Shown here in pieces: positions 4,075 to 23,420 of a DNA stretch of 23,461 nucleotides (positions are counted from its first letter, which is position 1; each line of letters opens with the position of its first letter). A program made the position numbers and the translations under genes. Source of the stretch: a virus; the IMG/VR virus record IMGVR_UViG_3300037882_000889, positions 1 through 23,461 of that record; one strand, written 5' to 3'. The notes under the pieces were generated by a model, which was not told the origin of the DNA, did no database searches, and saw nothing but the letters and a program-made list of their open reading frames with translations.

Positions 4075-4412
4075 GCCAGTTGACCTACAGACTTTTTGAC
4101 AAAGAAAAGCCCACGGCAAAGCAAATATGCTACCTGATTTGTGAGAACGAAAACGGTTACCTGTGGCAATCCATTGCTACCTATATCCCACCGCTGCAAG
4201 TTCCAGCAGATGATTTCTGCGACATGGAACTTTGGCACGAATCGGATTTCGACAAAGCCGAAGATGGCAATTGGTTCACGCCGCAAGGCTTTTACGAGGG
4301 CAGCTTATACAACGAAGAAACCCACTGGAAAATAACGGATAAGGTAGTGGCATGGGCACCTGTTTTTAGCAAGGAAGAAAAAACCGCAATCATCAAATCA
4401 CTTCAACAATGA
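4071..4412 (+). CDS. hypothetical protein, 113 aa (weak DUF551-like look)
   Basis: Coupled to both neighbours by ATGA junctions (4071-4074 and 4409-4412). The sequence is rich in Trp, Tyr, Phe and acidic residues, with WFTPQGFYEGSLYNEE followed by THWKITDKVVAWAPVF. The layout of a variable segment followed by a 'W...V.AWAPV' ending recalls the small DUF551-type phage proteins that end in a similar 'THWMPLP' phrase. That likeness is by eye and weak. Function unknown. Confidence 0.55.
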   Translation: MSQLTYRLFDKEKPTAKQICYLICENENGYLWQSIATYIPPLQVPADDFCDMELWHESDFDKAEDGNWFTPQGFYEGSLYNEETHWKITDKVVAWAPVFSKEEKTAIIKSLQQ

Positions 4413-6964
4413 CCGACCTACTCGAAAAATATACCGCCTTCCTAGAATCCAAAGCCGTCGCCGCCTTGCAGTCGGGCTTCGAGGTGAGCGTGGAGGAACT
4501 GAACCCCATCTTGTTCCCGCACCAAAAGGACGTGTGCCGCTGGGCCATCGCTGGCGGGTGCAGGGCCATCTTTGCCAGCTTTGGACTGGGCAAGACGGTG
4601 ATGCAGATACAGGTCATCAAAACCATCCTCGACAGGGTGGACGCTGCCGAAGGCAACGAAGACAGCGCTGGCCTTATCATTTGCCCGCTGGGCGTTAAGG
4701 CGGAATTTGTGCGGGATGCCAAACAGTTTTTTGGCATTGATTTCCACTATGTGCGCACCGATGACGAAGTCAGCAAATACCCATTCCACCGCTATTTCAT
4801 CACCAACTATGAGCGGGTGCGGGACGGCCAGCCTGACCCCAACCTCTTCACCGCTGTGAGCCTTGACGAAGCCAGCATCCTTCGCTCTTTTGGCTCAAAG
4901 ACCTACCAAGAGTTTTTGCCATTGTTCCATGACGTGCCGTACCGTTTCGTATGTACGGCAACGCCAGCGCCAAACCGTTTTAAGGAGCTGATTCATTATG
5001 CGGGCTTTTTGGGGATTATGGACACGGGGCAAGCCCTTACCAGGTTCTTTAAGCGAAACAGCCAAAAGGCGGGCGAGCTGACCATCCACCCGCACAAGGA
5101 GCGGGAGTTCTGGCTATGGGTAAGCACCTGGGCCACCTTCCTGACCAAGCCATCCGATTTGGGCTACTCCGATGAGGGCTATGACCTGCCGCCGCTGAAC
5201 TTGATAGAGCACCGCCTACCCGTTGACCATACCAGCGCCGGGGTGGACAGTTGGGGCACGGTGCGGATGTTCCGGGAAGCATCGGGCAGCATTCAGTATG
5301 CCGCACGGGAAAAACGGGACAGCCTCGACAGCCGCATCCAGCGGATGCTGGAAATCATCGCCACCGACCCTGATGGCCACTGGCTTATCTGGCACGACCT
5401 CGAAGACGAACGCCGTGCCATCGAGCAGGCCCTGCCCGGTGCGGTGACGGCCTACGGTTCGCAAGACCTTGACGAACGGGAGAGCGCCATCGCAGCGTTT
5501 TCCGAAGGTCGCATCAACATACTGGCCACCAAGCCTGTGATAGCGGGCAGTGGCTGCAATTTTCAGCGGCACTGCCACCGGGCCATCTACCTTGGAGTGG
5601 GCTACAAATTCAACGACTTCATCCAGTCCGTACACCGCATCCAGCGCTTTCTGCAAAGCAAGCCCGTGGACATCCACCTGATTTTCACGGAGAGCGAAGA
5701 CAACGTCTATGCTACCCTTATGCAGAAATGGGCACAGCACAAAGTGTTGGTGCAGAACATGACGGACATCATCAAAACCTACGGATTGACCGACAACATG
5801 AAACAGGAAATGAAACGCAGCCTTGGCCTACAGCGCCAAGTCATCACCGGAAAGCATTTCACGGCGGCGAACAACGACAACGTGCTCGAAACCGCCGACA
5901 TGCCCGATAACAGCGTGGGCCTCATCGTCACCAGCTGGCCGTTCGGGAACCATTACGAGTACAGCGCATCGTTCAACGATTTCGGGCACAACGAAGACGA
6001 TGACCGCTTTTTCGAGCAAATGGACTACTTAACCCCGAACGAGCTGCGCATCCTCAAACCCGGCCGCATGTACTGCCTGCATGTGAAGGATAGGCTGCTG
6101 TATGGCAGCGTGACCGGGCTGGGCATGTACAGCGTCAATCCGTTCAGCGATAAATGCGTGGCGCACATGATCAGGCACGGCTTTATTTACGAGGGCCGCA
6201 TCACCATCGACACCGACGTGGTAAGGGAGAACGCACAGACCTACCGACTGGGCTACACCGAGCAGTGCAAGGACGGCTCGAAGATGGGCGTAGGTTCGCC
6301 CGAATACATCCTGCTGTTCCGCAAGCTGCCCACCGAACTTACCAACGCCTATGCCGATGAGCCTGTGGTGAAAGAGAAAAGCGATTACAGCCGTTGCCGT
6401 TGGCAATTGGATGCCAGCAGCATCTGGCGCTCGAATGGCAACAGCTTTTTGACCCCTGAAAAGGTGCAGAGCTTGGAGCCTGCCGCCCTAAAGTCCATCT
6501 GGAAGAAATTCGCTGAAAACAGCATCTATGACTATGAACAGCACGTGCAGGTATTGGAGGCACGGGAAGAGAAGGGGCTAGTGCCCAGCGGCTTCATGCT
6601 GCTGCAACCGCATTGCCAAAGCAAAGACTGGATTTGGGAAGACGTGGCTAGGATGCGGACGTTGAACACGGTGCAGGTGAGCGCAAAGAAGGAGATGCAC
6701 ATTTGCCCGCTCCAGTTCGACGTGGTGGAACGGCTCATCCGCCGCTTTTCGAACGATGGCGATTTGGTATATGACCCGTTCGGCGGCTTGATGACCGTGC
6801 CCTATTGCGCCGTGAAGCTGGGCAGGCGGGGATATGGCTGCGAACTTAACCCCGAATACTGGGCGGATGGTGTTTACCACTTGCGGGCGCTAGAGAGCAA
6901 GATGGATGTGCCTACGCTGTTCGATTTGGTGGAGGCGGAGCTGGAAATGGTTGATTCACTTTAA
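4409..6964 (+). CDS. SF2 helicase - DNA methyltransferase fusion, 851 aa
   Basis: The first half is a superfamily-2 (SNF2/DEAD-like) helicase: Walker A ASFGLGKT at residues 56-63, motif II DEAS at 153-156, motif III TATP at 183-186, and motif VI HRIQRFLQ at 409-416. The second half (from about 480) is an N4/N6-type DNA methyltransferase of the beta order: motif IV TSWPFG at 508-513, then ILKPGR, then a long variable recognition region, HICPLQFDVVERLI (motif X-like, 764-777), and the SAM-binding motif I DPFGG at 789-793 followed by GYGCELNPEYW. Beta-class means motif IV comes before motif I. The catalytic motif is TSxPF, not the textbook (D/N/S)PP(Y/F). No nuclease domain is visible. Likely role: modifying phage DNA, perhaps to evade host restriction, or remodelling it. 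Fusions of this kind are known in phages. Coupled to the gene before by ATGA. Confidence 0.85.
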   Translation: MTDLLEKYTAFLESKAVAALQSGFEVSVEELNPILFPHQKDVCRWAIAGGCRAIFASFGLGKTVMQIQVIKTILDRVDAAEGNEDSAGLIICPLGVKAEFVRDAKQFFGIDFHYVRTDDEVSKYPFHRYFITNYERVRDGQPDPNLFTAVSLDEASILRSFGSKTYQEFLPLFHDVPYRFVCTATPAPNRFKELIHYAGFLGIMDTGQALTRFFKRNSQKAGELTIHPHKEREFWLWVSTWATFLTKPSDLGYSDEGYDLPPLNLIEHRLPVDHTSAGVDSWGTVRMFREASGSIQYAAREKRDSLDSRIQRMLEIIATDPDGHWLIWHDLEDERRAIEQALPGAVTAYGSQDLDERESAIAAFSEGRINILATKPVIAGSGCNFQRHCHRAIYLGVGYKFNDFIQSVHRIQRFLQSKPVDIHLIFTESEDNVYATLMQKWAQHKVLVQNMTDIIKTYGLTDNMKQEMKRSLGLQRQVITGKHFTAANNDNVLETADMPDNSVGLIVTSWPFGNHYEYSASFNDFGHNEDDDRFFEQMDYLTPNELRILKPGRMYCLHVKDRLLYGSVTGLGMYSVNPFSDKCVAHMIRHGFIYEGRITIDTDVVRENAQTYRLGYTEQCKDGSKMGVGSPEYILLFRKLPTELTNAYADEPVVKEKSDYSRCRWQLDASSIWRSNGNSFLTPEKVQSLEPAALKSIWKKFAENSIYDYEQHVQVLEAREEKGLVPSGFMLLQPHCQSKDWIWEDVARMRTLNTVQVSAKKEMHICPLQFDVVERLIRRFSNDGDLVYDPFGGLMTVPYCAVKLGRRGYGCELNPEYWADGVYHLRALESKMDVPTLFDLVEAELEMVDSL

Positions 6965-7734: not shown

Positions 7735-8014
7735 ATGAAATTCGCCAGCGTATGTTCGGGCATAGAAGCGGCCAGCATGGCATGGGAGCCGTTGGGCTGG
7801 CAGCCTGTATGGTTCAGCGAGGTGGCGCCGTTCCCATCGGCTGATGGGCTTCCCAGATGACCATACCAAAGTGCCGTACCGTGGCAAGCCCGCTGAGCTA
7901 TGCCCCGATGGCCCCCGATACCAAGCCTGTGGCAACAGCATTGCCGTGCCGCTGCTCCGATGGATAGGCAAGCGGATGGCGATGGTGGATGCCATCGTAA
8001 ATCCAAAATCGTAA
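7735..8014 (+). pseudogene. C5-cytosine DNA methyltransferase, internally deleted remnant
   Basis: The first frame (ATG 7735, TGA 7858-7860) encodes MKFASVCSGIEAASMAWEPL and continues to FSEVAPFPS, the motif I-II start of phage Dcm-type enzymes. The next frame (open from about 7838, stop TAA 8012-8014) encodes the family's C-terminal end: LMGFPDDHTKVPYRGK, then CPDGPRYQACGNSIAVPLL and RWIGKRM. Between them everything is missing, including the PCQ catalytic-cysteine motif, the ENV motif and the target-recognition domain, and the two parts are in different frames. About 34 plus 57 residues remain of an enzyme normally several hundred residues long. The junction lies at about 7836-7843. It cannot be an active methylase. 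The final residues (AIVNPKS) come from repeat copy 2. An assembly collapse is possible but less likely than a real deletion. Confidence 0.85.
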
Positions 8015-8031
8015 ATCTCAAATCATAATCC
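7994..8031. repeat. dispersed AAATC-type repeat, copy 2
   Basis: Contains ATCGTAAATCC then AAAATCGTAAATC and related units. It covers the end of the methyltransferase remnant (reading IVNPKS) and stops two bases before the next start codon at 8034. Less regular than copies 1 and 3 but built from the same ATCGTAAATC words. Confidence 0.8.
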
Positions 8032-8033
8032 AC

Positions 8034-8351: not shown

Positions 8352-8710
8352 AAGTAAAACTGAAAAGCAAGCACGAGCTGCAAGCCGTGTACCTGGTCGT
8401 GGCCAATATGGCCATGAAGCTGGCAGAAGAGGCGACACGCCCAACCAAGCCCGGCGAACGGGAACACGTGCGCATGGCATGTAGGTTGGTGGCCTTGGAA
8501 CTGCACAAGCAGGCGCTGAACATCGCCATGAAGCTGGCCATGCCCAGCGATAGCTACACCCTTCGCATCAATGCCCACGGCGGGCTTGCCCTGCTTTCCG
8601 CTTGGTACGCCGTGGACGTGACCGAAATCAATGACCCGCTGGCCTTTTGCCTTATGTCCGAAATAATGGACAATTTGCAGAAGGCGTATGGCTCGCAATC
8701 GCAAATCTGA
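8348..8710 (+). CDS. hypothetical helical protein, 120 aa
   Basis: Start chosen at 8348 because it makes an ATGA junction with the previous stop; an upstream in-frame ATG at 8237 would overlap that gene for over 100 bases. The protein is almost entirely helical, Ala/Leu/Met-rich (AVYLVVANMAMKLAEEATRP, HKQALNIAMKLAM), without signal peptide or membrane span. No family recognised. The last codons (GSQSQI) and the stop at 8708-8710 fall inside repeat copy 3. Confidence 0.6.
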   Translation: MKVKLKSKHELQAVYLVVANMAMKLAEEATRPTKPGEREHVRMACRLVALELHKQALNIAMKLAMPSDSYTLRINAHGGLALLSAWYAVDVTEINDPLAFCLMSEIMDNLQKAYGSQSQI

Positions 8711-8731
8711 AATCGTAAATCCGAAATCCAA
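8694..8731. repeat. dispersed AAATC-type repeat, copy 3
   Basis: Spans the stop codon of the upstream gene and ends one base before the HNH start codon at 8733. It shares an identical 21-base core (8709-8729) with copy 1 (3327-3347). Read in the HNH frame it would add RNRKSEIVNPKS in front of the true start. Confidence 0.85.
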
Positions 8732-8732
8732 T

Positions 8733-9137
8733 ATGCCCAGCTTCAACAACACCCGTACCACCCTGGCCCACGAGCGCCGCAAGTCGGAGGCCGCCGCCGC
8801 AAGGCCCGCCGAAGACTTCAGCTTCCTGAACAGCGGGGCATGGCGGGGATTGACTAAGGTTTACCTACGTGCGCACCCCGTTTGCGAATGCTGCAAAGCT
8901 GCTGGCCGTGTGCCCCTGCCGCCATCCACGGAGACTGACCACATGATAGGCCGTGAACAGGGCGGAGCCTTGCTCGACTGGGCCAACCTGTTGGCACTTT
9001 GCAAGTCGTGCCACAGCACCAAGACCCGCATCGAGGTGGCGGGGCCGATGTGCCAGGTAGTGGACACGGGCAGCGGGTTTGTGCCAATCATGGGGGGCAA
9101 ATCGGTTATAATTGAAAAAATAAATCGGTACAAATGA
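8733..9137 (+). CDS. HNH endonuclease
   Basis: A 134-residue HNH nuclease with two zinc-binding CxxC pairs: C51-x-x-C54 (PVCECC) and C90-x-x-C93 (LCKSCH). The catalytic core is ETDHMIG (Asp69-His70), the Asn of NLLALC (85), and His94. HNH proteins next to terminase genes are known in HK97-type phages, where they assist the terminase in cutting at the cos or pac site; that role is inferred from position here. The start at 8733 is preferred over 8688, which would translate repeat copy 3. The end overlaps the next start by ATGA (9134-9137). Confidence 0.88.
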   Translation: MPSFNNTRTTLAHERRKSEAAAARPAEDFSFLNSGAWRGLTKVYLRAHPVCECCKAAGRVPLPPSTETDHMIGREQGGALLDWANLLALCKSCHSTKTRIEVAGPMCQVVDTGSGFVPIMGGKSVIIEKINRYK

Positions 9138-10363
9138 AGATGGCAACTTTTTTCGACAATATACCCCGCATTAATATGCGGGAAAGCATCGCCCTCACCG
9201 TGCAGAGCCTACAAGCTTACGGCGAGAAATACGAAAACTGGGCCATCGCTTGGAGCGGCGGCAAGGACAGCACGGCAACTGTCACGCTCATCATGTACCT
9301 CATCGAAAGCGGGCAAGTGCCAGCGCCAAAGAGCCTACGGGTATTCTATGCCGATACCCGCATGGAACTACTGCCGCTTTATGTCAGCGCCGCCGATGTG
9401 ATGGACGGATTGGCCGAGCGGGGCATCGAAGTGGTAAAGGTGATGGCACCGATGGAAAAGCGTTTCCTGCCCTATATCCTTGGCCGTGGCGTTCCACCAC
9501 CAAACAACAACACTTTTCGATGGTGTACCCGCCAAATCAAGGTTGATCCCATGAAAGATGTTTTGCAGGAAGAGTTTAAACGATTGGGCAAAAAGTTTTT
9601 GACCATCACAGGTGTAAGGCAAGGCGAGAGCGCCATCCGTGACAGCCGCATCGTGATGAGTTGCTCAAAGGACGGCGCTGAATGTGGCCAAGGCTGGTAC
9701 CAGCAGACGATGCCCGAACATGCTACCGATACCCTTGCGCCGCTGCTGCACTGGCGGGTTTGCCACATTTGGGAATGGCTGAAACACTGGGCACCACAAG
9801 CTGAATTTGGGGACTGGGACACGGCGCTCATCGCCGATGCCTACGGTGGCAGCGAAGCAGAGGAAATCAACGCCCGCACGGGCTGTGTATGCTGCCCGCT
9901 GGCCCAGCGTGACAGTGCGCTAGATGCGGTTATCAAGCAGCCTAAATGGGCCTACCTTGCCCCGCTAAAGGAATTGCGCAGCGTATATGATGCCCTGCGT
10001 TTGCCCCAAAACCGCCACCGACAAACGGGCGAGCAGCGCCGCAAGGATGGCAGCATCCCAAAGAACCCCAACCGCATGGGTGCGCTGACGATGGAGGCGA
10101 GGATGTGGGCATTTGCGCAGATTGAAGACATACAAGGCCGCATTAACATTGCCGCCAATAAATTCAATCGGCCACTGGTGGACATCATCAACGCCGAAGA
10201 AATTGACTACATAGAAACCTGCTGGCGCAATAAGCTCTACCCAAACGGCTGGACGGGCAACGAGCCTACAGCTGATTTGCCATACGTGCAATTATACCAA
10301 GATGGCAGCTTTCAGCCGTTGCTCTTTGAAAATGATTTTGTAACTCAAACCACCACACAATGA
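9134..10363 (+). CDS. PAPS reductase / DndC-like PP-loop protein
   Basis: Residues 37-50 (AIAWSGGKDSTATV) carry the SGGKDS PP-loop that binds ATP or an adenylyl group in the PAPS-reductase/adenine-nucleotide alpha-hydrolase superfamily. Further family signs are FYADTRMELL (71-80), FRWCTRQIKVDPM (128-140), ITGVRQGES (158-166) and RTGCVCCPLAQ (248-258). Cysteines 251, 253 and 254, with 131, 177, 184 and 210 as further candidates, could bind an iron-sulfur cluster as in DndC, which helps put sulfur into the DNA backbone. No DndA/IscS, DndD or DndE partner is present, so a complete phosphorothioation system is not shown. Other roles are real sulfate assimilation or an unknown nucleotide modification. 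ATGA junctions link it to HNH before and small terminase after. Confidence 0.85.
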   Translation: MKMATFFDNIPRINMRESIALTVQSLQAYGEKYENWAIAWSGGKDSTATVTLIMYLIESGQVPAPKSLRVFYADTRMELLPLYVSAADVMDGLAERGIEVVKVMAPMEKRFLPYILGRGVPPPNNNTFRWCTRQIKVDPMKDVLQEEFKRLGKKFLTITGVRQGESAIRDSRIVMSCSKDGAECGQGWYQQTMPEHATDTLAPLLHWRVCHIWEWLKHWAPQAEFGDWDTALIADAYGGSEAEEINARTGCVCCPLAQRDSALDAVIKQPKWAYLAPLKELRSVYDALRLPQNRHRQTGEQRRKDGSIPKNPNRMGALTMEARMWAFAQIEDIQGRINIAANKFNRPLVDIINAEEIDYIETCWRNKLYPNGWTGNEPTADLPYVQLYQDGSFQPLLFENDFVTQTTTQ

Positions 10364-10863
10364 AACGCACAACCTACGAAGACAAAGCCACCAAGGGCAC
10401 GGCCACGCTGGAAAAGAACAAGGCCGCCGTGCTGTACACCACGCACGACATGCCAAAGCCTCAGCTAAAGCTGACCAAGGCGGGCACGAAGATATTTAAG
10501 GGCATCTGTGAGCACCTAATCCAGCACAACACGCTGTGCAAGGTGGATGCCTACTATATCACCGTGGCGGCTCATCAGTACGGCATTTATCATGCTATGA
10601 GCGAAAAGATAGATGAAATGGAAGCAGAGAATCCGGGCACTGGCATGTTTGTCACCTACCCTACCGGGGCCGTGCAGCAAAGCCCTTGGATGAACACCAT
10701 GAATAAGGCCTTCGACAATTTCGAGAAGGCTTGCCGAAACCTTGGCCTACAGGTGAAGGCCCGTGACCCGCTGCTGGCTTTCTCCAAAAAGGCCAGCACG
10801 GATGATGACCCGAATGATGAGTTTGGATTGAATGATATGGCTAGGAAAATTAAAAAGAATTGA
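10360..10863 (+). CDS. terS: phage terminase small subunit (P27 family)
   Basis: The small terminase recognises phage DNA and loads it onto the large subunit. The 167-residue sequence fits the P27-type family: a basic N-terminus, LKLTKAGTKIFKGICEHL at about 36-53, a helical middle (DAYYITVAAHQYGIYHAM), a conserved TGAVQQSPWMNTMNKAF segment, then ACRNLGLQVKARDPLLAF, and an acidic tail. It begins within the stop of the PP-loop gene (ATGA at 10360-10363). The large terminase lies downstream after one small gene. Confidence 0.82.
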   Translation: MKRTTYEDKATKGTATLEKNKAAVLYTTHDMPKPQLKLTKAGTKIFKGICEHLIQHNTLCKVDAYYITVAAHQYGIYHAMSEKIDEMEAENPGTGMFVTYPTGAVQQSPWMNTMNKAFDNFEKACRNLGLQVKARDPLLAFSKKASTDDDPNDEFGLNDMARKIKKN

Positions 10864-10866
10864 TTT

Positions 10867-11073
10867 ATGTGGAGAGATTCAATAAAATACAAGCCTAGTA
10901 TAGGTGATTCAATTTTAGTAAAAACAACATCAGGGCAGGTTTTTTATGCGGTTTACAGCAATGAAGATGAGTTTGATGTTCACAGGCCAAATAATAAAAC
11001 GGAAAGCCGTTTATCATGGTACAAATATTCAAGCCGAACCATTATAAAATGGCGATATTTTACAAGCAATTGA
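10867..11073 (+). CDS. hypothetical AT-rich small protein, 68 aa
   Basis: Inserted between the two terminase genes, starting three bases after the small-subunit stop. It is clearly more A/T-rich than its neighbours (many AAA, AAT, TTT and TAT codons), which suggests later acquisition. The protein has beta-strand character (GDSILVKTTSGQVFYAVYSN) and a basic, aromatic C-terminus (WYKYSSRTIIKWRYF). It looks like a small SH3-like barrel, but that is speculation. Function unknown. Confidence 0.55.
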   Translation: MWRDSIKYKPSIGDSILVKTTSGQVFYAVYSNEDEFDVHRPNNKTESRLSWYKYSSRTIIKWRYFTSN

Positions 11074-11081
11074 CCGTATAA

Positions 11082-12938
11082 ATGACCCAACCCACTGAAC
11101 ATCCCTTATACTACTTCGACGAACAAGCTGCCGAGCGGCCCTGCCTGTTCATCGAAAAGTATTGCAGGCATGTGGAGGGGGTGAAGCAAAAGGAGCGCAT
11201 CGAGCTGTTCCCGTTTTGGCGGGATACCATCCGGGATATTTTCGGCTGGAAACGGGCTGAAGGATGCTGGACTAATACCCCGCTCAAAAGTGGGCGGGTG
11301 ATGCAAGTTGAAATAACGGGAGCCTTCATCAATGCCCGAACAGGTGACGCCGTGCCGTGGCTGCGAAAGGGGAACACGGTGCAGCTTTTCCACGGCGACT
11401 ATGCCGATGTGCTGGAACTTACCAAGGACTACCAAGACGGTGACACGGTGCTTCATGTGCGGGGCGAAATGAGCGAAGACCTGGAGGCGGGCCAGCCGTT
11501 GGTGCTGGACAATTTCCGGCGCTACACCCATATCTGGCTGGAGATACCAAAGAAGCAGGCGAAGTCCATCATCATGTCGGCGCTGAGCCTGTACATGACC
11601 GGGGCAGATGGCGAGAAGGGCGCACAGGTGCGGGTGGTGGCGGCTGACAAGTACCAGGCCCGCATCATCTTTGATGCTGGCCGCAAGATGGTTGAGTTTG
11701 ACAAAACATTGTCTAAGTCGTTCCACGTGCTAAAGGACAGCATCACCCACAAGGCCACGAACAGCTACTGCATTGTATTGAGCAGCGACGTGGAGAGCAA
11801 GCACGGCCCAAACATCTCCACGCTGTTCATTGATGAGATGCATGCGCAATCGAACCGGGACCTTTACGATACGCTGGAAAAGGGAACGGCGGCACGGGAT
11901 CAGCCTTTGGTGTTCATCACCACGACGGCGGGCTACAAATACACCTTTGCCCACGATATGAGCTTGGAGGCAAGGGACATCTTGGAAGGGCGGGTGCAGT
12001 CGGGCCACTGGTACGTGCGGATGTTCGGGATGAGCGAAGAGCGGGCGATGAAAGAATGGGACACCGAGGCGGCATGGCGGGAAGTGAACCCAGGCTATGG
12101 CATCACGGTGGGCAAGAACTACTACATGCGCAAGGTAGAAGACTGCAAACGAAGCCCTGCAGAAGTGGCGGCATTTTGGCGGCTTCACCTGAACGTTTGG
12201 ACGGGCAGCGACAAAAGCTGGGAGGTGGTGCCCTACTGGAACAACAGCGACCATGGCAAAGTACCAGAGGAAGAGCTGCACGGGCGGGAATGCTACTGTG
12301 GCATCGACTTCGCCCCGAAAAGGGACACCAGCGCCGTGGTGTACCTTTTTCCGCCAAAGGACGCAGGGAACAAGGGGCCGGACGGCAAATGGATTGTGCT
12401 TATGCGCAACTACATCCCAGCGGACACCTTGCAGGAACGCAAGAAACAGGAAAATGACCAATGGGACGTGTGGGTTCGCACCGGCTTGGCCATCACCACA
12501 CCGGGCAACGTGACTGACTTCGACAAGATAGCGGATGATGTGGTAGCGGATGCGAAAAAGTTCGTCATCCTGAAAATAGGGGCCGACCCCTACCGGGCCA
12601 CGCAGCCGATACTGAAGATGCAAGAGGCGGGCCTGCCCGCTGAGGAATACCCCAACACCTTACCTAAACTAAGTCCTGCAATGGAGACCGTGGAACGGCT
12701 CATCATCGCAGGGGACATCAATCACCAGGGCAACCCGCTACTGGCTTGGATGGCCGGAAACGTGGTAGTTTTCGAAGATGCCAAGCAGAACAGGATGCCC
12801 AACAAAAAGAACTCAAAAGCCCGCATCGACGGTATTCTCGGTTTGATCATGGCGATGGGATTGGCCACGGCTGGGACTGAAAGGCCACAAAGGTCGATTT
12901 ACGAGAATGAGGAGCTGTGGGTGGAGGGGGATAATTGA
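11082..12938 (+). CDS. terL: phage terminase large subunit, with extra domain
   Basis: This is the ATP-driven motor and nuclease that packages DNA. ATPase motifs: an adenine-motif region ELFPFWRDTIRDIFGWK (41-57), Walker A-like EIPKKQAKS (154-162; PRKNAKS in relatives), Walker B TLFIDE (247-252), and the coupling motif ITTTAGY (279-285). The RNase-H-like nuclease carries acidic residues at Asp409 (GIDFAPKRD), Asp502 (GADPYRA) and Asp583 (ARIDGILGL). Oddly, residues about 62-144 lie between the adenine-motif region and RRYTHIWLEIPKK, where relatives run straight through. This segment is beta-rich (VMQVEITGAFINARTGDA, GDTVLHVRGEM), like small barrels in phage structural proteins, and lengthens the protein to 618 residues. 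Confidence 0.92.
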   Translation: MTQPTEHPLYYFDEQAAERPCLFIEKYCRHVEGVKQKERIELFPFWRDTIRDIFGWKRAEGCWTNTPLKSGRVMQVEITGAFINARTGDAVPWLRKGNTVQLFHGDYADVLELTKDYQDGDTVLHVRGEMSEDLEAGQPLVLDNFRRYTHIWLEIPKKQAKSIIMSALSLYMTGADGEKGAQVRVVAADKYQARIIFDAGRKMVEFDKTLSKSFHVLKDSITHKATNSYCIVLSSDVESKHGPNISTLFIDEMHAQSNRDLYDTLEKGTAARDQPLVFITTTAGYKYTFAHDMSLEARDILEGRVQSGHWYVRMFGMSEERAMKEWDTEAAWREVNPGYGITVGKNYYMRKVEDCKRSPAEVAAFWRLHLNVWTGSDKSWEVVPYWNNSDHGKVPEEELHGRECYCGIDFAPKRDTSAVVYLFPPKDAGNKGPDGKWIVLMRNYIPADTLQERKKQENDQWDVWVRTGLAITTPGNVTDFDKIADDVVADAKKFVILKIGADPYRATQPILKMQEAGLPAEEYPNTLPKLSPAMETVERLIIAGDINHQGNPLLAWMAGNVVVFEDAKQNRMPNKKNSKARIDGILGLIMAMGLATAGTERPQRSIYENEELWVEGDN

Positions 12939-13393: not shown

Positions 13394-13504
13394 ATGCAGT
13401 GGTGGTTTAACAAACGGAACAATGTTCCGAAGCCCTACGCCACTTCGCCCGCACATTTGCCTGAAAATAAATCAGGCGGATGCAGTTATTTGGACTTGAC
13501 ATAA
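13394..13504 (+). CDS. possible 36-aa microprotein overlapping portal start
   Basis: ATG at 13394, directly after the previous stop (13390-13392), with a TAA stop at 13502-13504, overlapping the portal start by 25 bases. It begins MQWWFNKRNNVPKPYATSP. It covers the only gap between the upstream gene and the portal gene. There is no family match by eye and the overlap is larger than usual here, so it may simply be the portal leader. An N-terminal sequence of MxWWFNKR style resembles start regions of portal-type proteins, so a mis-framed or duplicated portal start is another option. Confidence 0.3.
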   Translation: MQWWFNKRNNVPKPYATSPAHLPENKSGGCSYLDLT

Positions 13505-14781
13505 AGCGAAGCAACCCGGCAGCATCTGCCCGGAGCGTTCGCAGCATTGAAAATCCAAGCACCAGCCTAAGCAATCCAGACGCCTGGCTATATGACGCCT
13601 TTGGGAGCAGTTCCAATGGCGTTTCTGTTTCTGCCAAGTCGGTGCTGGGCATCCCAGCCTATGCCGCCGCCGTTGGCCGCCGTGCCCGTACCATTGGCAG
13701 CCTGAGCTGCAAGGTCTTCAAAAAGACCGAACTGGGCACGGAGCCGGACTATGAGCACCCGCTCTACAACCTGCTGAACAGGCAGCCACATCCCCTATAC
13801 AATTCCTTTATTTTTTTCCAGACGTTGGTCACGAACCTCGACACACGGGGCGTGGCCTATGCCCGCATCATCCGCAACCGTGGAACGGGAGAAGTGAGTC
13901 AGTTGGAACTGGTGGAGCCTGCCAATGTGGTGGACTTGCAAAAAACGGGCAGCGGCAACTACTTCTACATCGTGAACACGACCGACACGATGGGCCGCAC
14001 GGAGCGGAAAACGGTGGCGCTGGGCGATATGGTGGTGCTCAAGGGCCTCACATTCGATGGCTTCACGGCATTGAACCCGGTGCAGCAGCACAAAGCGACG
14101 TTCAGCGGTGGGCTATCCTCAAAGGAATACGTGAGCAAGTTCTATGAGAACGGCGCTCATATAAACTATGCGGTGGAGGTGCCATTTGAAATGTCGCCGA
14201 CGGCAAAGAGCAATTTCGAGAGCACATGGCAGAAACTGTTCAGCGGCATCCGCAATGCTTTCCGCAAGCCGTTCATCCTGGACAAGGGCGCAAAGCTGCA
14301 CCCGCTCAAGATGACACCTGCCGATGCCCAAATGACCGAAAGCAACCGGGCGAACGTGGAAGATATGGCCCGCATTGCCGATGTGCCCGCCCACATGGTG
14401 GGAGCGGGCGAAAACATGACATTCAGTAGCGTGGAGGTGATGGTAACGGATTTTGTGCAATACAGCCTCCGCAATACCATTCGACAATTGGAGATGGAAC
14501 TGGAAAACAAGTGCCTTAGCCGTGCCGAAAGGGATGGCCGTACGCATGAAATCCATTTCAACCTCGACAGCTTGCTTCAAGGGGACATCAAGACCCGCAC
14601 AGAAAAGGGCATCAACGAAATCAAGTGGGGATTGATTACGGTGAACGAATACCGGCGCCTGAACGGATACAACGAGATTCAGGGCGGTGATGTGCTGTTC
14701 AACCCCATCAACATGTTTGTGACCAAGGAAGGCGAAACGCCTGTTAACCCTGCTTTCGAGCAACAACCGACGCAACAATGA
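13480..14781 (+). CDS. HK97-family portal protein
   Basis: The portal is the twelve-subunit ring at one capsid vertex through which DNA passes. The 433-residue protein has family landmarks: SAKSVLGIPAYAAAVGRRA then TIGSLSCKVFKK near the N-terminus, HPLYNLLNRQPHPLYNSFIF, a strand-rich core (YARIIRNRGTGEVSQLELV), and the typical ADVPAHMVGAGENMTFSSVE segment (about 301-320) before the C-terminal helices and IKWGLITVNEYRRLNGY. Its length and its place after terL and before the protease fit. The end overlaps the protease start by ATGA (14778-14781), and its C-terminus is the usual flexible Pro/Gln tail. Confidence 0.93.
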   Translation: MQLFGLDIKRSNPAASARSVRSIENPSTSLSNPDAWLYDAFGSSSNGVSVSAKSVLGIPAYAAAVGRRARTIGSLSCKVFKKTELGTEPDYEHPLYNLLNRQPHPLYNSFIFFQTLVTNLDTRGVAYARIIRNRGTGEVSQLELVEPANVVDLQKTGSGNYFYIVNTTDTMGRTERKTVALGDMVVLKGLTFDGFTALNPVQQHKATFSGGLSSKEYVSKFYENGAHINYAVEVPFEMSPTAKSNFESTWQKLFSGIRNAFRKPFILDKGAKLHPLKMTPADAQMTESNRANVEDMARIADVPAHMVGAGENMTFSSVEVMVTDFVQYSLRNTIRQLEMELENKCLSRAERDGRTHEIHFNLDSLLQGDIKTRTEKGINEIKWGLITVNEYRRLNGYNEIQGGDVLFNPINMFVTKEGETPVNPAFEQQPTQQ

Positions 14782-15455
14782 GCAAGGAAAAGCAATATAC
14801 GGGCGGCCCTGAGCGCCGTGCATTCACTGGCAAGGTAGAACGCCGTGCAGCCGATGCGGACGGCTTCGACTTTGAGGGACTGGCCAGCCGTGTGGGCACT
14901 GAGTACACCATGTACGAGGATGAAACGGAGATATGGACAGAGGAAATCGCACCGGGCGCTTTTGACGATGTTCTGGGCGATGATGTGCGCATCCTCATCA
15001 ACCACAAGGATAGCGCAATCCTTGGCCGTACAAAGAGCGGCACGGCCAAGGTATGGGTGGACGCTGATGGGCTTCGCTATGCATGGAAAAACCCCACCGA
15101 AATCACCTATGCCGCCGACTTGGCCGTGAGCATCAACCGGGGCGACATTGACCAGAGCAGTTTTGGATTTCGCACGTCATGGCGCAACAACAAATGGGAG
15201 GAGATACCCCTGCCCGATGGCAAGCGCAAGTACAAGCGTACCATCATGAAGTTCGATGAGCTTTTCGACGCTTCGCCCGTGACCTACCCTGCCAACCCCG
15301 ATACGGCGGTGGGCGCAAGGGATTTCGAGACGGCGCTGAAGGAGTGGAAAGAACAAAGGAGCAACCAACGCCCGCCCGCCGATGAGGGGGGATGGGAAGT
15401 GGATATTTATTTGAAAATGGCAGACTTGGACGCCAAACGTGCAATGATGCTTTAA
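14778..15455 (+). CDS. HK97-family prohead protease
   Basis: This serine protease cleaves the capsid delta domain during head maturation. The 225-residue protein shows the family pattern: FEGLASRVGTEYTMYED, EEIAPGAFDDVL, the catalytic His in LINHKD (His76), LAVSINRGDIDQSSFGF with the catalytic Ser at about 128, and FDELFDASPVTYPANPDTAV. The C-terminus after about residue 185 is charged and low in structure. Translationally coupled to portal upstream; the capsid gene follows 18 bases downstream behind its own A/T-rich leader. Confidence 0.93.
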   Translation: MSKEKQYTGGPERRAFTGKVERRAADADGFDFEGLASRVGTEYTMYEDETEIWTEEIAPGAFDDVLGDDVRILINHKDSAILGRTKSGTAKVWVDADGLRYAWKNPTEITYAADLAVSINRGDIDQSSFGFRTSWRNNKWEEIPLPDGKRKYKRTIMKFDELFDASPVTYPANPDTAVGARDFETALKEWKEQRSNQRPPADEGGWEVDIYLKMADLDAKRAMML

Positions 15456-15473: not shown

Positions 15474-16796
15474 ATGAGCAACATCATTCAGGACATCGCC
15501 GACGCTAAACAAAAGCGGAAAAAGGTCCATGAAGACCAAAGGGCGATTACAAACACTGCACGCAAGGAACAACGTGCATTGACTGCCGATGAGGAAACTG
15601 CCTATGAAAAGGCCGAATCCGATTTTAAGATTTACGATGACGAGGTGCGCCGCCTCGAAACCCTGAAAGAACGGGAAGAGCGCATGGCACTCGAACAGCA
15701 CGAAGAGCGTGGCGGTGGCCGTGCCCCTGGCGATGACGAAGACGAAATCCAAGAGTCCGAAACCCGTGCCCAAACGAAGGCCCGCCAAAAGGAGGAACTT
15801 CGCTATGAAAAGGCTTTCCGCAAGTACCTGCGCTATGGCATGGAAGCCTTGGAAAAGGAGGAACGTGCCACTTTGCGCATGCGCTATGACGCTGGCAAGG
15901 ACGGCAAAGGCGAAATCAGGGCCGCACAGACGGTGACCACCACGGGCGGCGGCTATGCCATCCCACAGGGCTTTGCAGGTCGGGTGGAAGAAATCATGAA
16001 GTATTTCGGGCCGATGGTGGACGGCGGCGTGACGGGCGAGCTTCGCACGACATCCGGCAACAACATCCCCTACCCTACCCTCGACGGCACTGGCACCAAG
16101 GGCCGCCTTTTGGCCATCAACACGGCGGTGACGGAAACGGCCCTGACCTTTGGCAAGGTTGACTTGGACGCCTACAAGTTCAGCTCCGACCTCATCACAG
16201 TTCCCTACGAACTGCTTGAAGATGAGGACGTGAACCTTGAAGCGCTGCTGGACAACCAGCTTGCAGAGCGACTTGGCCGCATCATGAACGAATCATTCAC
16301 CACTGGCACGGGCAGCAGCCAGCCGAACGGCGTGGTGACTGCGAGCGCACTTGGCAAGACCACCGCTTCTGCAACTGCATTCACCCGCCCTGAAATCATT
16401 GACCTTATCCACAGCATCGACAAGGCTTATCGGATGAACCCGAAGAGCGGCCTGATGATGCACGACCTCATTTTTGCGGCCATCCGAAAATTGGCATTGG
16501 GTTCTGGCGATGCCACGCCGCTGTACCAAATCAGCGCAATTGCTGGGCAGAGCGACAAGATTGAGGGCTTGCCAGTCTTCATCAACAACGACATGAGCAG
16601 CGCCGTGACCACTGGCCTGAAAATCATGCTTTGCGGTGATTTCTCGAAGTTCCTTGTGCGCAAGGTGAACGGCGTTCGCATGTTCCGCTTGACGGAGCGC
16701 TACGCCGACAACGACCAAGTGGGCTTTTTCGGCTTCATGCGGGCAGACTCCGACCTGATTGCTGCGAACAGCATCAAGCACATGATTACGGCCTAA
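15474..16796 (+). CDS. HK97-fold major capsid protein
   Basis: The protein forms the icosahedral head. Residues about 1-80 are a charged coiled coil (QKRKKVHEDQRAITNTARKE, EERMALEQHEER), the delta domain that acts as built-in scaffold and is removed by the protease, followed by an acidic Gly-rich stretch (GDDEDEIQESE). The folded shell part begins around AQTVTTTGGGYAIPQGF (151-167) and includes YPTLDGTGTKGRLL, FSSDLITVPYELLEDEDVN, LGRIMNESFTTGTGSSQPNG and FGFMRADSDLIAANSI at the end. The 440-residue length suits a delta-domain member. The leader CTTTAAAATTGAGCTAAG has no Shine-Dalgarno sequence. A hairpin follows 38 bases after the stop. Confidence 0.95.
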   Translation: MSNIIQDIADAKQKRKKVHEDQRAITNTARKEQRALTADEETAYEKAESDFKIYDDEVRRLETLKEREERMALEQHEERGGGRAPGDDEDEIQESETRAQTKARQKEELRYEKAFRKYLRYGMEALEKEERATLRMRYDAGKDGKGEIRAAQTVTTTGGGYAIPQGFAGRVEEIMKYFGPMVDGGVTGELRTTSGNNIPYPTLDGTGTKGRLLAINTAVTETALTFGKVDLDAYKFSSDLITVPYELLEDEDVNLEALLDNQLAERLGRIMNESFTTGTGSSQPNGVVTASALGKTTASATAFTRPEIIDLIHSIDKAYRMNPKSGLMMHDLIFAAIRKLALGSGDATPLYQISAIAGQSDKIEGLPVFINNDMSSAVTTGLKIMLCGDFSKFLVRKVNGVRMFRLTERYADNDQVGFFGFMRADSDLIAANSIKHMITA

Positions 16797-20849: not shown

Positions 20850-23420
20850 ATGACCTTAGCAGATTTGAACGTACGAGTCGGTTTTCTGAACGACCTTAAA
20901 AAGGGCCTTGGCGGTATCGAAAGAGACCTGCGCCGGGCCTCTCGCAATTTTGCGCAGGCTGGCAACGAGATTGCCATGAGCCTGAGCTTGCCCCTTGGGG
21001 CCTTTGCGGTGAAGGCGGTGCAGACCTCCGCTGAAATGGAGAGCCTAAAGCTAGCCATGCGTACCACGTTCCAAGATGCAGGGCGAAGCATTGCGGATGC
21101 CGACAAGGAACTGGAGGCGCTGAGGAAGTCGGCAATGGCACCGGGGCTTGAATTTGAAGGGGCGGTTAAAGGCTCCATTGCTTTGCAAAATGTGGGCTAC
21201 AGTGCGGAACAAAGCCGCAAGATAGTTGAACAGCTCGCCAATACCATAAGCATGTCAGGCGGTGACCCTGAAAGCATGAACCGTGTCATAAAGCAATTCA
21301 CGCAGATGAGCGCAAAGGGGCGCATCCTGCAAGAAGATTTGGGCATTTTGGTTGAAAACATGCCAGCGCTTAGCAAGATAATGAAGGACACCTTTGGCAC
21401 TGCCAACGCAGAGCAGCTAAGGGACATGGGCGTGAGCGCCGATGAGTTCATCCAAAAGACCATCATGGCAATGGAGAAGCTGCCACGTGTTTCTGGCGGC
21501 CTAGCCAACAGCATCACCAACATGGGGCAGGCGGTGAAGACTTTTCTTGCAACCATCGGCGATGACCTGGCCGAAACCTTCGACCTAAAGAATAAATTCG
21601 ATGAACTTGGCGGCTGGCTGCAAGGCGTGGCGGCTTGGTTCAAAGGTTTGTCCGCTTCTACCAAGGAATGGATTTTGTATGTTGGGGCGGCTGTGATTGC
21701 GTTGGGGCCGCTTTTGAAGTTGATGGCGGGCATCGGTAGTGTTGCGGGCATGGTGATTACGTTCATGGGCAACATTGTTGGCATGTTAAAAGGCGTGGCA
21801 GGGGCTGCAATGTCCGCTGCAAAAGCATTTCAGGCGATGAGCATGGCTCAAAAAGCGACATTGGCAGGGCTAGGCATTGCCATTTTGGTGGCAGCGGCCA
21901 CTTTATGGAGCAAATACTCCGACAGTGTGGATGCAGCCACACAAAGCGAGCAGCGGGTTAAAAAAGCCATTTCGGACACACAGACTGAAATAGCAAAAGA
22001 ACAGATCCAGGCAAACATCCTTTTTGAGACGCTGAAGGATTTGAGCAAAGGGACGGATGAGCGTTCAGCGGCATTGGATACCCTCAAAAGCAAATACCCG
22101 ACCTACTTGGAAGGGATGAAACTGGAAGAGCTTTCGCTTGGAAAGATTGAGACGGCGCAAAAGCTGGTAAATGAGCAAATCGTTAAAAGCGTAGCGCTCA
22201 GGATGAAGGCGGCGGCACAGGAAGAGGTGGCTGCCAAGATTGCGGCAAAACTTACCAGAATCACACAATTGAAAGGCGGGGCACAATTCACACCTACCGA
22301 GGGCCTTGGTGTCGGAGTGATGGACATTGCCAAGTATGGCAGCGCTGCCGCTGGTGTTATTGCCAAGATGCAACGTGAGGTTGACCTGCTAAAAGGCGAA
22401 CTGGTGAACCTTGATAATCAGTTTGAAAAAACGTTCAACACGCAAAAAACAGGCGAGAGCGTGGTGACCAGCGACATGTTGGATAAATACTATAATCCAG
22501 AAGCTCCGATGAAAAAAGGGGCAGAGAAGGGTGGCGGGGAAAAGAAGGGGACTAAGAAGGGCAAGGGAGAAGATGTAAAGACAACCACATCCGTATTGCA
22601 AGACCTCGAAAAAGCATACGCCGCCGCCGATGTGCGGGCACAGGCTTTTGGGGCCACCTATGATGCAAATGCGGAAAGGGCCAGTGCTTTGCAGTCGGCC
22701 ATCGTTTCATTGCTTGACATGGGGATGAAACCCACCGATGCGGCGGTAGCTCCATTGGTGGAACGTTGGGCCAATCTAAATGCAGAGCTTGGCATATTGC
22801 CTGCCAAGATGAGCGCAATCACAAGCGCAACCGCTCCACTGTTAGAAACCACTACGCAGCTTTCAACGATGGCAGATACTATCAATGTTGCATGGATGCA
22901 GCTTGGTGAAACAATGACCCAAGCATTGCAATCAGCAGGGCAGGCGATGATTGAATATGCTAACGCAGGCGGCGCAAGTTTGCGGCAGATGGGAAAAGAG
23001 GCATTGAAGTCAGCGGCAAGCGTGGCACGTGCTGCCTTGATTTCTTTTGTGACAAGCGTAATAAAGGACACGGGCATTGCCGCTGGGCCGTTGGGTGCAA
23101 TTGTAGGCCCTGCCGCCGGTGCAGCCGCTGGGCTTGCCTTCAATGGCATACTGAAGGGATTGAAGATACCAGCATTTGCCAAAGGTGGCGGTCCCATCAC
23201 TGAGCCAACAATGGCAATGTTTGGCGAATACCCAGGCGCAAGAACTAACCCAGAATATGCATTGAGACAAGACCAACTACAGGGTTTGATTAATAAAGCA
23301 GTCAGCCAAAGCAGCGGTGGCGGCAACATGACAGTGACGGGAACACTAAGAGGCAACGGCAGGGAGCTATTGGCGGTCATAGAGCAAGCCAGCTTTGACC
23401 AGGTGCGGCGGGGGGGATAG
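20850..23420 (+). CDS. tape measure protein, 856 aa
   Basis: The ruler for tail length and a channel component during DNA entry. The N-terminal part (about residues 50-240) fits the tape-measure N-terminal domain: AVQTSAEMESLKLAMRTTF, GSIALQNVGYSAEQSRKIVE, SMNRVIKQFTQMSAKGRILQ, NMPALSKIMKDTFG. Hydrophobic segments follow at about 274-311 (WILYVGAAVIALGPLLKLMA and on) and 338-355, then helical coiled-coil stretches, a Lys/Gly-rich low-complexity linker at about 553-575, and another Gly/Ala hydrophobic stretch at 747-768. The C-terminus carries FAKGGGPITEPTMAMFGEYP and NPEYALRQDQL, typical of tape-measure ends. It starts six bases after the chaperone stop and appears complete, ending QVRRGG. 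At 856 residues the implied tail is of moderate length. Confidence 0.94.
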   Translation: MTLADLNVRVGFLNDLKKGLGGIERDLRRASRNFAQAGNEIAMSLSLPLGAFAVKAVQTSAEMESLKLAMRTTFQDAGRSIADADKELEALRKSAMAPGLEFEGAVKGSIALQNVGYSAEQSRKIVEQLANTISMSGGDPESMNRVIKQFTQMSAKGRILQEDLGILVENMPALSKIMKDTFGTANAEQLRDMGVSADEFIQKTIMAMEKLPRVSGGLANSITNMGQAVKTFLATIGDDLAETFDLKNKFDELGGWLQGVAAWFKGLSASTKEWILYVGAAVIALGPLLKLMAGIGSVAGMVITFMGNIVGMLKGVAGAAMSAAKAFQAMSMAQKATLAGLGIAILVAAATLWSKYSDSVDAATQSEQRVKKAISDTQTEIAKEQIQANILFETLKDLSKGTDERSAALDTLKSKYPTYLEGMKLEELSLGKIETAQKLVNEQIVKSVALRMKAAAQEEVAAKIAAKLTRITQLKGGAQFTPTEGLGVGVMDIAKYGSAAAGVIAKMQREVDLLKGELVNLDNQFEKTFNTQKTGESVVTSDMLDKYYNPEAPMKKGAEKGGGEKKGTKKGKGEDVKTTTSVLQDLEKAYAAADVRAQAFGATYDANAERASALQSAIVSLLDMGMKPTDAAVAPLVERWANLNAELGILPAKMSAITSATAPLLETTTQLSTMADTINVAWMQLGETMTQALQSAGQAMIEYANAGGASLRQMGKEALKSAASVARAALISFVTSVIKDTGIAAGPLGAIVGPAAGAAAGLAFNGILKGLKIPAFAKGGGPITEPTMAMFGEYPGARTNPEYALRQDQLQGLINKAVSQSSGGGNMTVTGTLRGNGRELLAVIEQASFDQVRRGG

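Follow-up and report, generated by a model that had tools for sequence, protein, structure and literature searches.

The ATPases that package phage DNA belong to the most conserved phage proteins, and bacterial immune sensors target them. The best structural match to the protein studied here is the HK97 large terminase gp2 (PDB 6z6d), which has the same two-domain organization and the same motor and nuclease motifs, but which carries no segment between its N-terminal helices and the strand that precedes Walker A. The HK97 protein does have additions of its own at other sites (PMC9410871): a linker strand, plus an alpha-alpha-beta element in the nuclease domain. In-frame additions within the ATPase domain are known from inteins of large terminases, such as mycobacteriophage TerL1-a; these interrupt Walker A, Walker B, or a helix and are removed by splicing (PMC5050341). 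One of the TerL relatives collected here, L093 (1177-3750), likewise has an intein, which is of the LAGLIDADG type, lies between the K and S of Walker A, and has Gln as its apparent first residue. The mEp235-type terminases (Escherichia phage mEp235, the Pantoea At-9b plasmid prophage, L332, and L333; L010, L013, L332, and L333 in our collection) have 19 extra residues at the very loop considered below, an addition the size of a hairpin, compared with 83 residues in the present protein.

The stretch of DNA that we analyzed in full (the window) is an IMG/VR virus record of 23,461 bases from an uncultured phage. At positions 11082-12938 of the plus strand, it encodes a large terminase (TerL) of 618 amino acids of the HK97/Terminase_1 type. 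This assignment comes from Pfam (TerL_ATPase, 1.9e-17; TerL_nuclease, 3.8e-30), from PHROG 9 (phrog_9, 3.1e-127), and from HK97 6z6d, which is the best PDB match both by sequence (1.3e-35) and in a Foldseek search with the predicted model (3.9e-37). The features of the protein described here all lie on the plus strand. An N-terminal helical part (residues 14-61; 11121-11264), which is aligned in all full-length relatives, ends in FGWKRAEG and contains AF2 helices at residues 14-27 and 44-55 with pLDDT of 91-98. The packaging ATPase motifs are present. They comprise the Walker A region KKQAKS (residues 157-162; 11550-11567), with K158 and K161 invariant or near-invariant in the alignment, the Walker B FIDE region with D251 and E252 (11823-11837), and the C-motif TTTAG with T281 and T282 (11919-11933); K161, D251/E252, and T281/T282 are invariant in an alignment with 77 relatives. 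D251/E252 correspond to HK97 D153/E154 (PMC9410871). The C-terminal domain is an RNase H-like nuclease by Pfam, and its three invariant carboxylates, D409, D502, and D583 (12306-12830), were assigned through alignment to HK97 D302/D388/D471 (PMC9410871).

Between FGWKRAEG and FRRYTHIWLEIPKKQAKS lies an extra segment of 83 amino acids, probably a small beta-domain, that occupies residues 62-144 (11265-11513, plus strand). In an alignment of 13 TerL sequences, it begins right after G61 and stops before F145-R146 (RRY), which shows that the coordinates assigned in the preliminary description are exact. Against the 12 relatives in this alignment, the protein aligns continuously save for these residues, and the relatives pass from FGx..xxG directly to xR[RQ][FY]. 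BLAST matches to TerL mostly start at residues 143-146 because the extra segment precedes them. The loop between the N-terminal helices and the Walker A strand is short in the HK97-type family; here, the distance from I50 to I164 is 115 residues. The same interval measures 32 or 33 residues in 284 of 319 aligned relatives and 30-51 residues in all those that span the region, with the exception of L093, where 374 residues result from the intein at Walker A, a site different from that of the segment. The long loop is a deviation within the HK97-type family and no defining catalytic feature.

A domain at this point had initially been called unusual. This is borne out for its length (83 residues) but less so for its location, as the loop is already a variable site, with the 19 additional residues of the four mEp235-type relatives and 13 in one further relative. 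Similarity between the segment and the mEp235 loop is not significant with standard gap costs (p about 0.10), and the value of 0.011 was reached with relaxed gaps picked after the fact. Elsewhere in the family, the TerL open reading frames (ORFs) of L324, L325, and L326 have a Cys-rich loop of about 20 residues (WCKCPRA..ERCG) earlier in the N-terminal part; it is another site of insertion into TerL and possibly binds metal.

The segment was sought in a wide range of sequences. None of about 315 relatives examined in an alignment of 319 distinct TerLs from phages, plasmids, IMG/VR, and GTDB genomes carries it; this collection came partly from scans represented by their listed matches, and the searched set may omit records very near to the window. 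When about 800 genomes, mostly of Bacteroidota, were searched with the whole TerL, the matches only skipped the segment. Two completed pattern scans of 2.9 million viral contigs (TTCGG and TTTGG versions) yielded 18 loci, none with the segment; these scans need FGW, a gap of 234-294 bases, an R[RKQ][FY] anchor, and a narrow P-loop, and homologues outside these limits are missed. In a first, looser architecture scan of viral contigs, the matches listed were TerLs with a chance TGGAAR upstream. No phage with the segment was recovered by close-relative scans of viral and genome contigs with the whole TerL, by a scan with the segment as query, or by a scan with the capsid protein as query. Profile scans built from the TerL alignments returned, among the matches listed, only relatives without it, and the segment has no sequence match in Pfam, PHROGs, NCBIfam, or PDB sequences. 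As far as these sequence searches reach, we regard this as no case found rather than as none existing. The proposal that homologues lack this part of the protein is nevertheless well founded: residues 62-144 are missing in all relatives examined, profile, pattern, and genome searches turned up no relative that shares the insert, and close homologues do not mostly carry it as part of the ATPase core.

The segment is in frame with the TerL ORF. Its codon bias is 0.187 bits per codon, in comparison with -0.025 to 0.416 in the rest of the gene, and exceeds that of all 1000 uniform-synonymous shuffles (maximum, 0.064). GC content is the same as that of the gene, and GC3 is 0.69 versus 0.73. The encoded residues have an order-promoting, patterned composition that falls above the Uversky boundary, with a net charge of -6 (7 K/R and 13 D/E). 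There is no copy of the segment DNA elsewhere in the window. Within the segment, a weak 23-residue repeat (GNTVQLFHGDYADVLE / GDTVLHVRGEMSEDLE) was reached by 55 of 2000 shuffles and is suggestive only; a DNA repeat of 25 nucleotides at 72% was also recorded. Tandem duplication or copying from elsewhere in the window as the origin of the segment was rejected or found to be weak. An 8-base repeat, TGCTGGAC, noticed by eye near both borders, is attributed to chance, as the two copies are in different frames (238 bases apart, not a multiple of 3).

An AF2 model of the full protein, built with 77 relatives, has pLDDT of 91-98 for residues 11-60, about 97 right past residue 150, and 38-62 over most of the segment. 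A core strand directly after the segment (residues 150-154; 11529-11543, plus strand) is predicted with high confidence. The low values within the segment are expected because no other sequence covers it, and therefore they are no evidence for disorder. In this model, the ATPase core is predicted with confidence and is complete on its own, and the segment is placed outside the ATPase sheet; this agrees with the earlier view of the segment as an addition that is not integral to the core. With every catalytic motif intact, the motor is expected to function while carrying the segment as an outboard addition.

Folded alone from its single sequence, the segment gives an AF2 model with seven strands and no helix, at a mean pLDDT of 57. 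In a Foldseek search with this low-confidence model, no match had an E value under 0.001. The highest-ranking matches, all nonsignificant (E 0.066-0.11, TM about 0.5), are barrel-containing chains of eIF5B, EF-Tu, F1-ATPase, and Ighmbp2. The beta-barrels of these P-loop enzymes (domain 2 of EF-Tu/eIF5B, the N-terminal barrel of F1-ATPase beta, and domain 1B of Ighmbp2) show no sequence similarity to the segment. A search of a viral fold library with the same low-confidence model returned only E values above 0.09. Based on the model, the segment is likely beta-rich and possibly a barrel. The beta-rich character named in the preliminary description is therefore favored by the all-beta prediction and tempered by its low pLDDT, whereas the idea of a captured virion barrel is so far not supported, with no sequence relative in the searches above and no significant fold match for the low-confidence model.

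The window encodes a siphophage-type head and tail module, with the order HNH, small terminase, TerL, portal, protease, and capsid, as in HK97-type systems. The plus strand carries an HNH endonuclease upstream of the terminase genes (8688-9137; Pfam HNH, 2e-9), a PAPS-reductase-family protein between it and the small terminase (9134-10363), a small terminase of the P27/Terminase_4 family (10360-10863; Pfam Terminase_4, 5.3e-11; phrog_83, 2.1e-16), and, after TerL, the portal protein (13480-14781; phrog_12, 8e-81). The head maturation protease (14778-15455), the major head protein (15474-16796), connectors, the major tail protein, and a TMP_3 tape measure (20850-23420) are also encoded. The nearest annotated relatives of the tape measure include Cellulophaga and Bacteroides phages, and thus the host of this phage is likely a member of the Bacteroidota, as judged from sequence kinship.

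Several other features of the window were recorded. A 68-amino-acid ORF between the small and large terminase genes (10867-11073, plus strand) has a GC content of about 34%, is far more AT-rich than its neighbors, and resembles a recently gained gene. The remnant of a C5 cytosine methyltransferase (7735-8017, plus strand), identified by eye from recognizable motifs, has its start (MKFASVCSGIEAASMAWEPLGW) and end (PRYQACGNSIAVPLLRWIGKRM) in different frames and its middle missing, with the junction at a palindrome, CCCATCGGCTGATGGG. At 4409-6964 (plus strand), a SNF2-type helicase is fused to an N6/N4 DNA methylase in a protein of 851 amino acids. Repeats of 14 bases of the type AATCGCAAATCCGA occur at 7994-8032 and 8697-8728 and also extend ORF ends as ..RNRKSEIVNPKS.., and the hexamer ACGGCT is present about 22 times at the contig end (1-131).

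We propose, as a reading that could equally well prove right or wrong, that the segment is an accessory insertion private to this lineage, probably a small beta-domain that folds independently, and that it serves the motor ring as a docking or spacer module. Both of its ends would be anchored in the surface loop linking the N-terminal helices to the core strand before Walker A, a tolerant, length-variable loop that presumably expanded in this lineage. The beta-domain would take no part in ATP chemistry and would do its docking or spacing away from the motor core. Packaging motors vary in geometry from system to system, and the order of ATPase and portal in T4 and phi29 has been described differently. 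In the HK97 motor, fitting placed the nuclease domains immediately under the portal, with the ATPase domains below them (PMC10359639). If this motor is arranged similarly, the segment would face the DNA-entry side, where DNA and the small terminase arrive, away from the portal. Such a geometry, together with the acidic character of the segment, favors a docking or spacer role toward the loading complex. The likeliest partner would be a complex of the small terminase (or the HNH protein) with DNA that loads the motor; the HNH endonuclease is a possible partner and the small terminase a candidate one, and the small terminase is our leading guess. More tentatively, the segment may be a folded beta-domain of an accessory kind not seen before in viral packaging ATPases, built into the TerL ring just ahead of Walker A, which gives the motor either a regulated contact (with the small terminase, the HNH protein, or a host factor) or a shield against immune sensors.

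The main rival to a docking or spacer module is near-neutral expansion, in which insertion or duplication added 83 residues to a surface loop that tolerates them, unseen by selection. A loop length that already varies (30-51 residues), the restriction of the segment to this TerL, and the weak internal repeat, suggestive only, are consistent with such an origin. However, the order-promoting, patterned composition, the gene-like codon bias, and the all-beta model of the segment alone argue against it, and phage genes are usually economical; we consider it possible but doubtful. The segment is known from a lone record with no second copy found, as would be the case for an assembly artifact in a metagenomic contig. 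Yet it falls exactly in frame at a structural loop with codon usage and GC that match the gene, so mis-assembly is highly unlikely, and the segment is without a match elsewhere in the window. Similarly little weight is given to a remnant of a mobile protein element or of an RNA element. The segment starts with Cys62 and ends in ..DN, L093 shows that a relative carries an intein, and inteins are frequent in TerL (PMC5050341). Unlike TerL inteins, though, the segment lacks intein features: at 83 residues, it is smaller than a Hint domain (130 or more residues), the residue after it is Phe145 rather than C/S/T, Pfam finds no Hint or LAGLIDADG match, and the site is not a conserved active-site motif. 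We rejected intein identity on its size, the adjoining Phe145, and the missing Hint match; in addition, there is no in-frame flanking duplication, and an Rfam scan finds nothing that would point to an RNA element.

Three further explanations assign the segment a function other than docking or spacing toward the loading complex. It could mask a conserved TerL surface from Avs-type STAND sensors of large terminases, as Avs1-Avs4 recognize phage terminase, portal, or another phage protein (PMC12931631). An Avs3-terminase complex exists in the PDB (8dgc, among the Foldseek matches), and a bulky private insertion close to the ATP-binding part could shield that region, although we regard immune evasion as unlikely on the whole. 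In RecA-like motors, small inserted beta-barrels are able to bind nucleic acid, and the Ighmbp2 helicase is among the nonsignificant fold matches; a DNA-binding addition that holds or steers the DNA as it enters, one of the roles initially suggested, is nonetheless disfavored by the net charge of -6 and by the lack of a significant fold match (best E, 0.066), and it seems quite improbable. Contacts between TerL rings and the portal clip are known (PMC10359639), and the segment had also been suggested as a clip to the portal. In an HK97-like motor, a segment of the ATPase domain would face away from the portal, which makes such a contact very unlikely if the present motor has that arrangement.

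We conclude that the segment is a modest but real oddity of a well-known protein. As a natural addition of 83 residues in a working TerL, it marks a loop where the motor tolerates a whole domain, and this loop can help in mapping the contacts of the packaging ring and in choosing where to put tags or labels. The segment also offers a case in which to test how a motor acquires accessory parts, and a partner, if one is shown to exist, would reveal a contact of HK97-type motors that has gone unrecognized.
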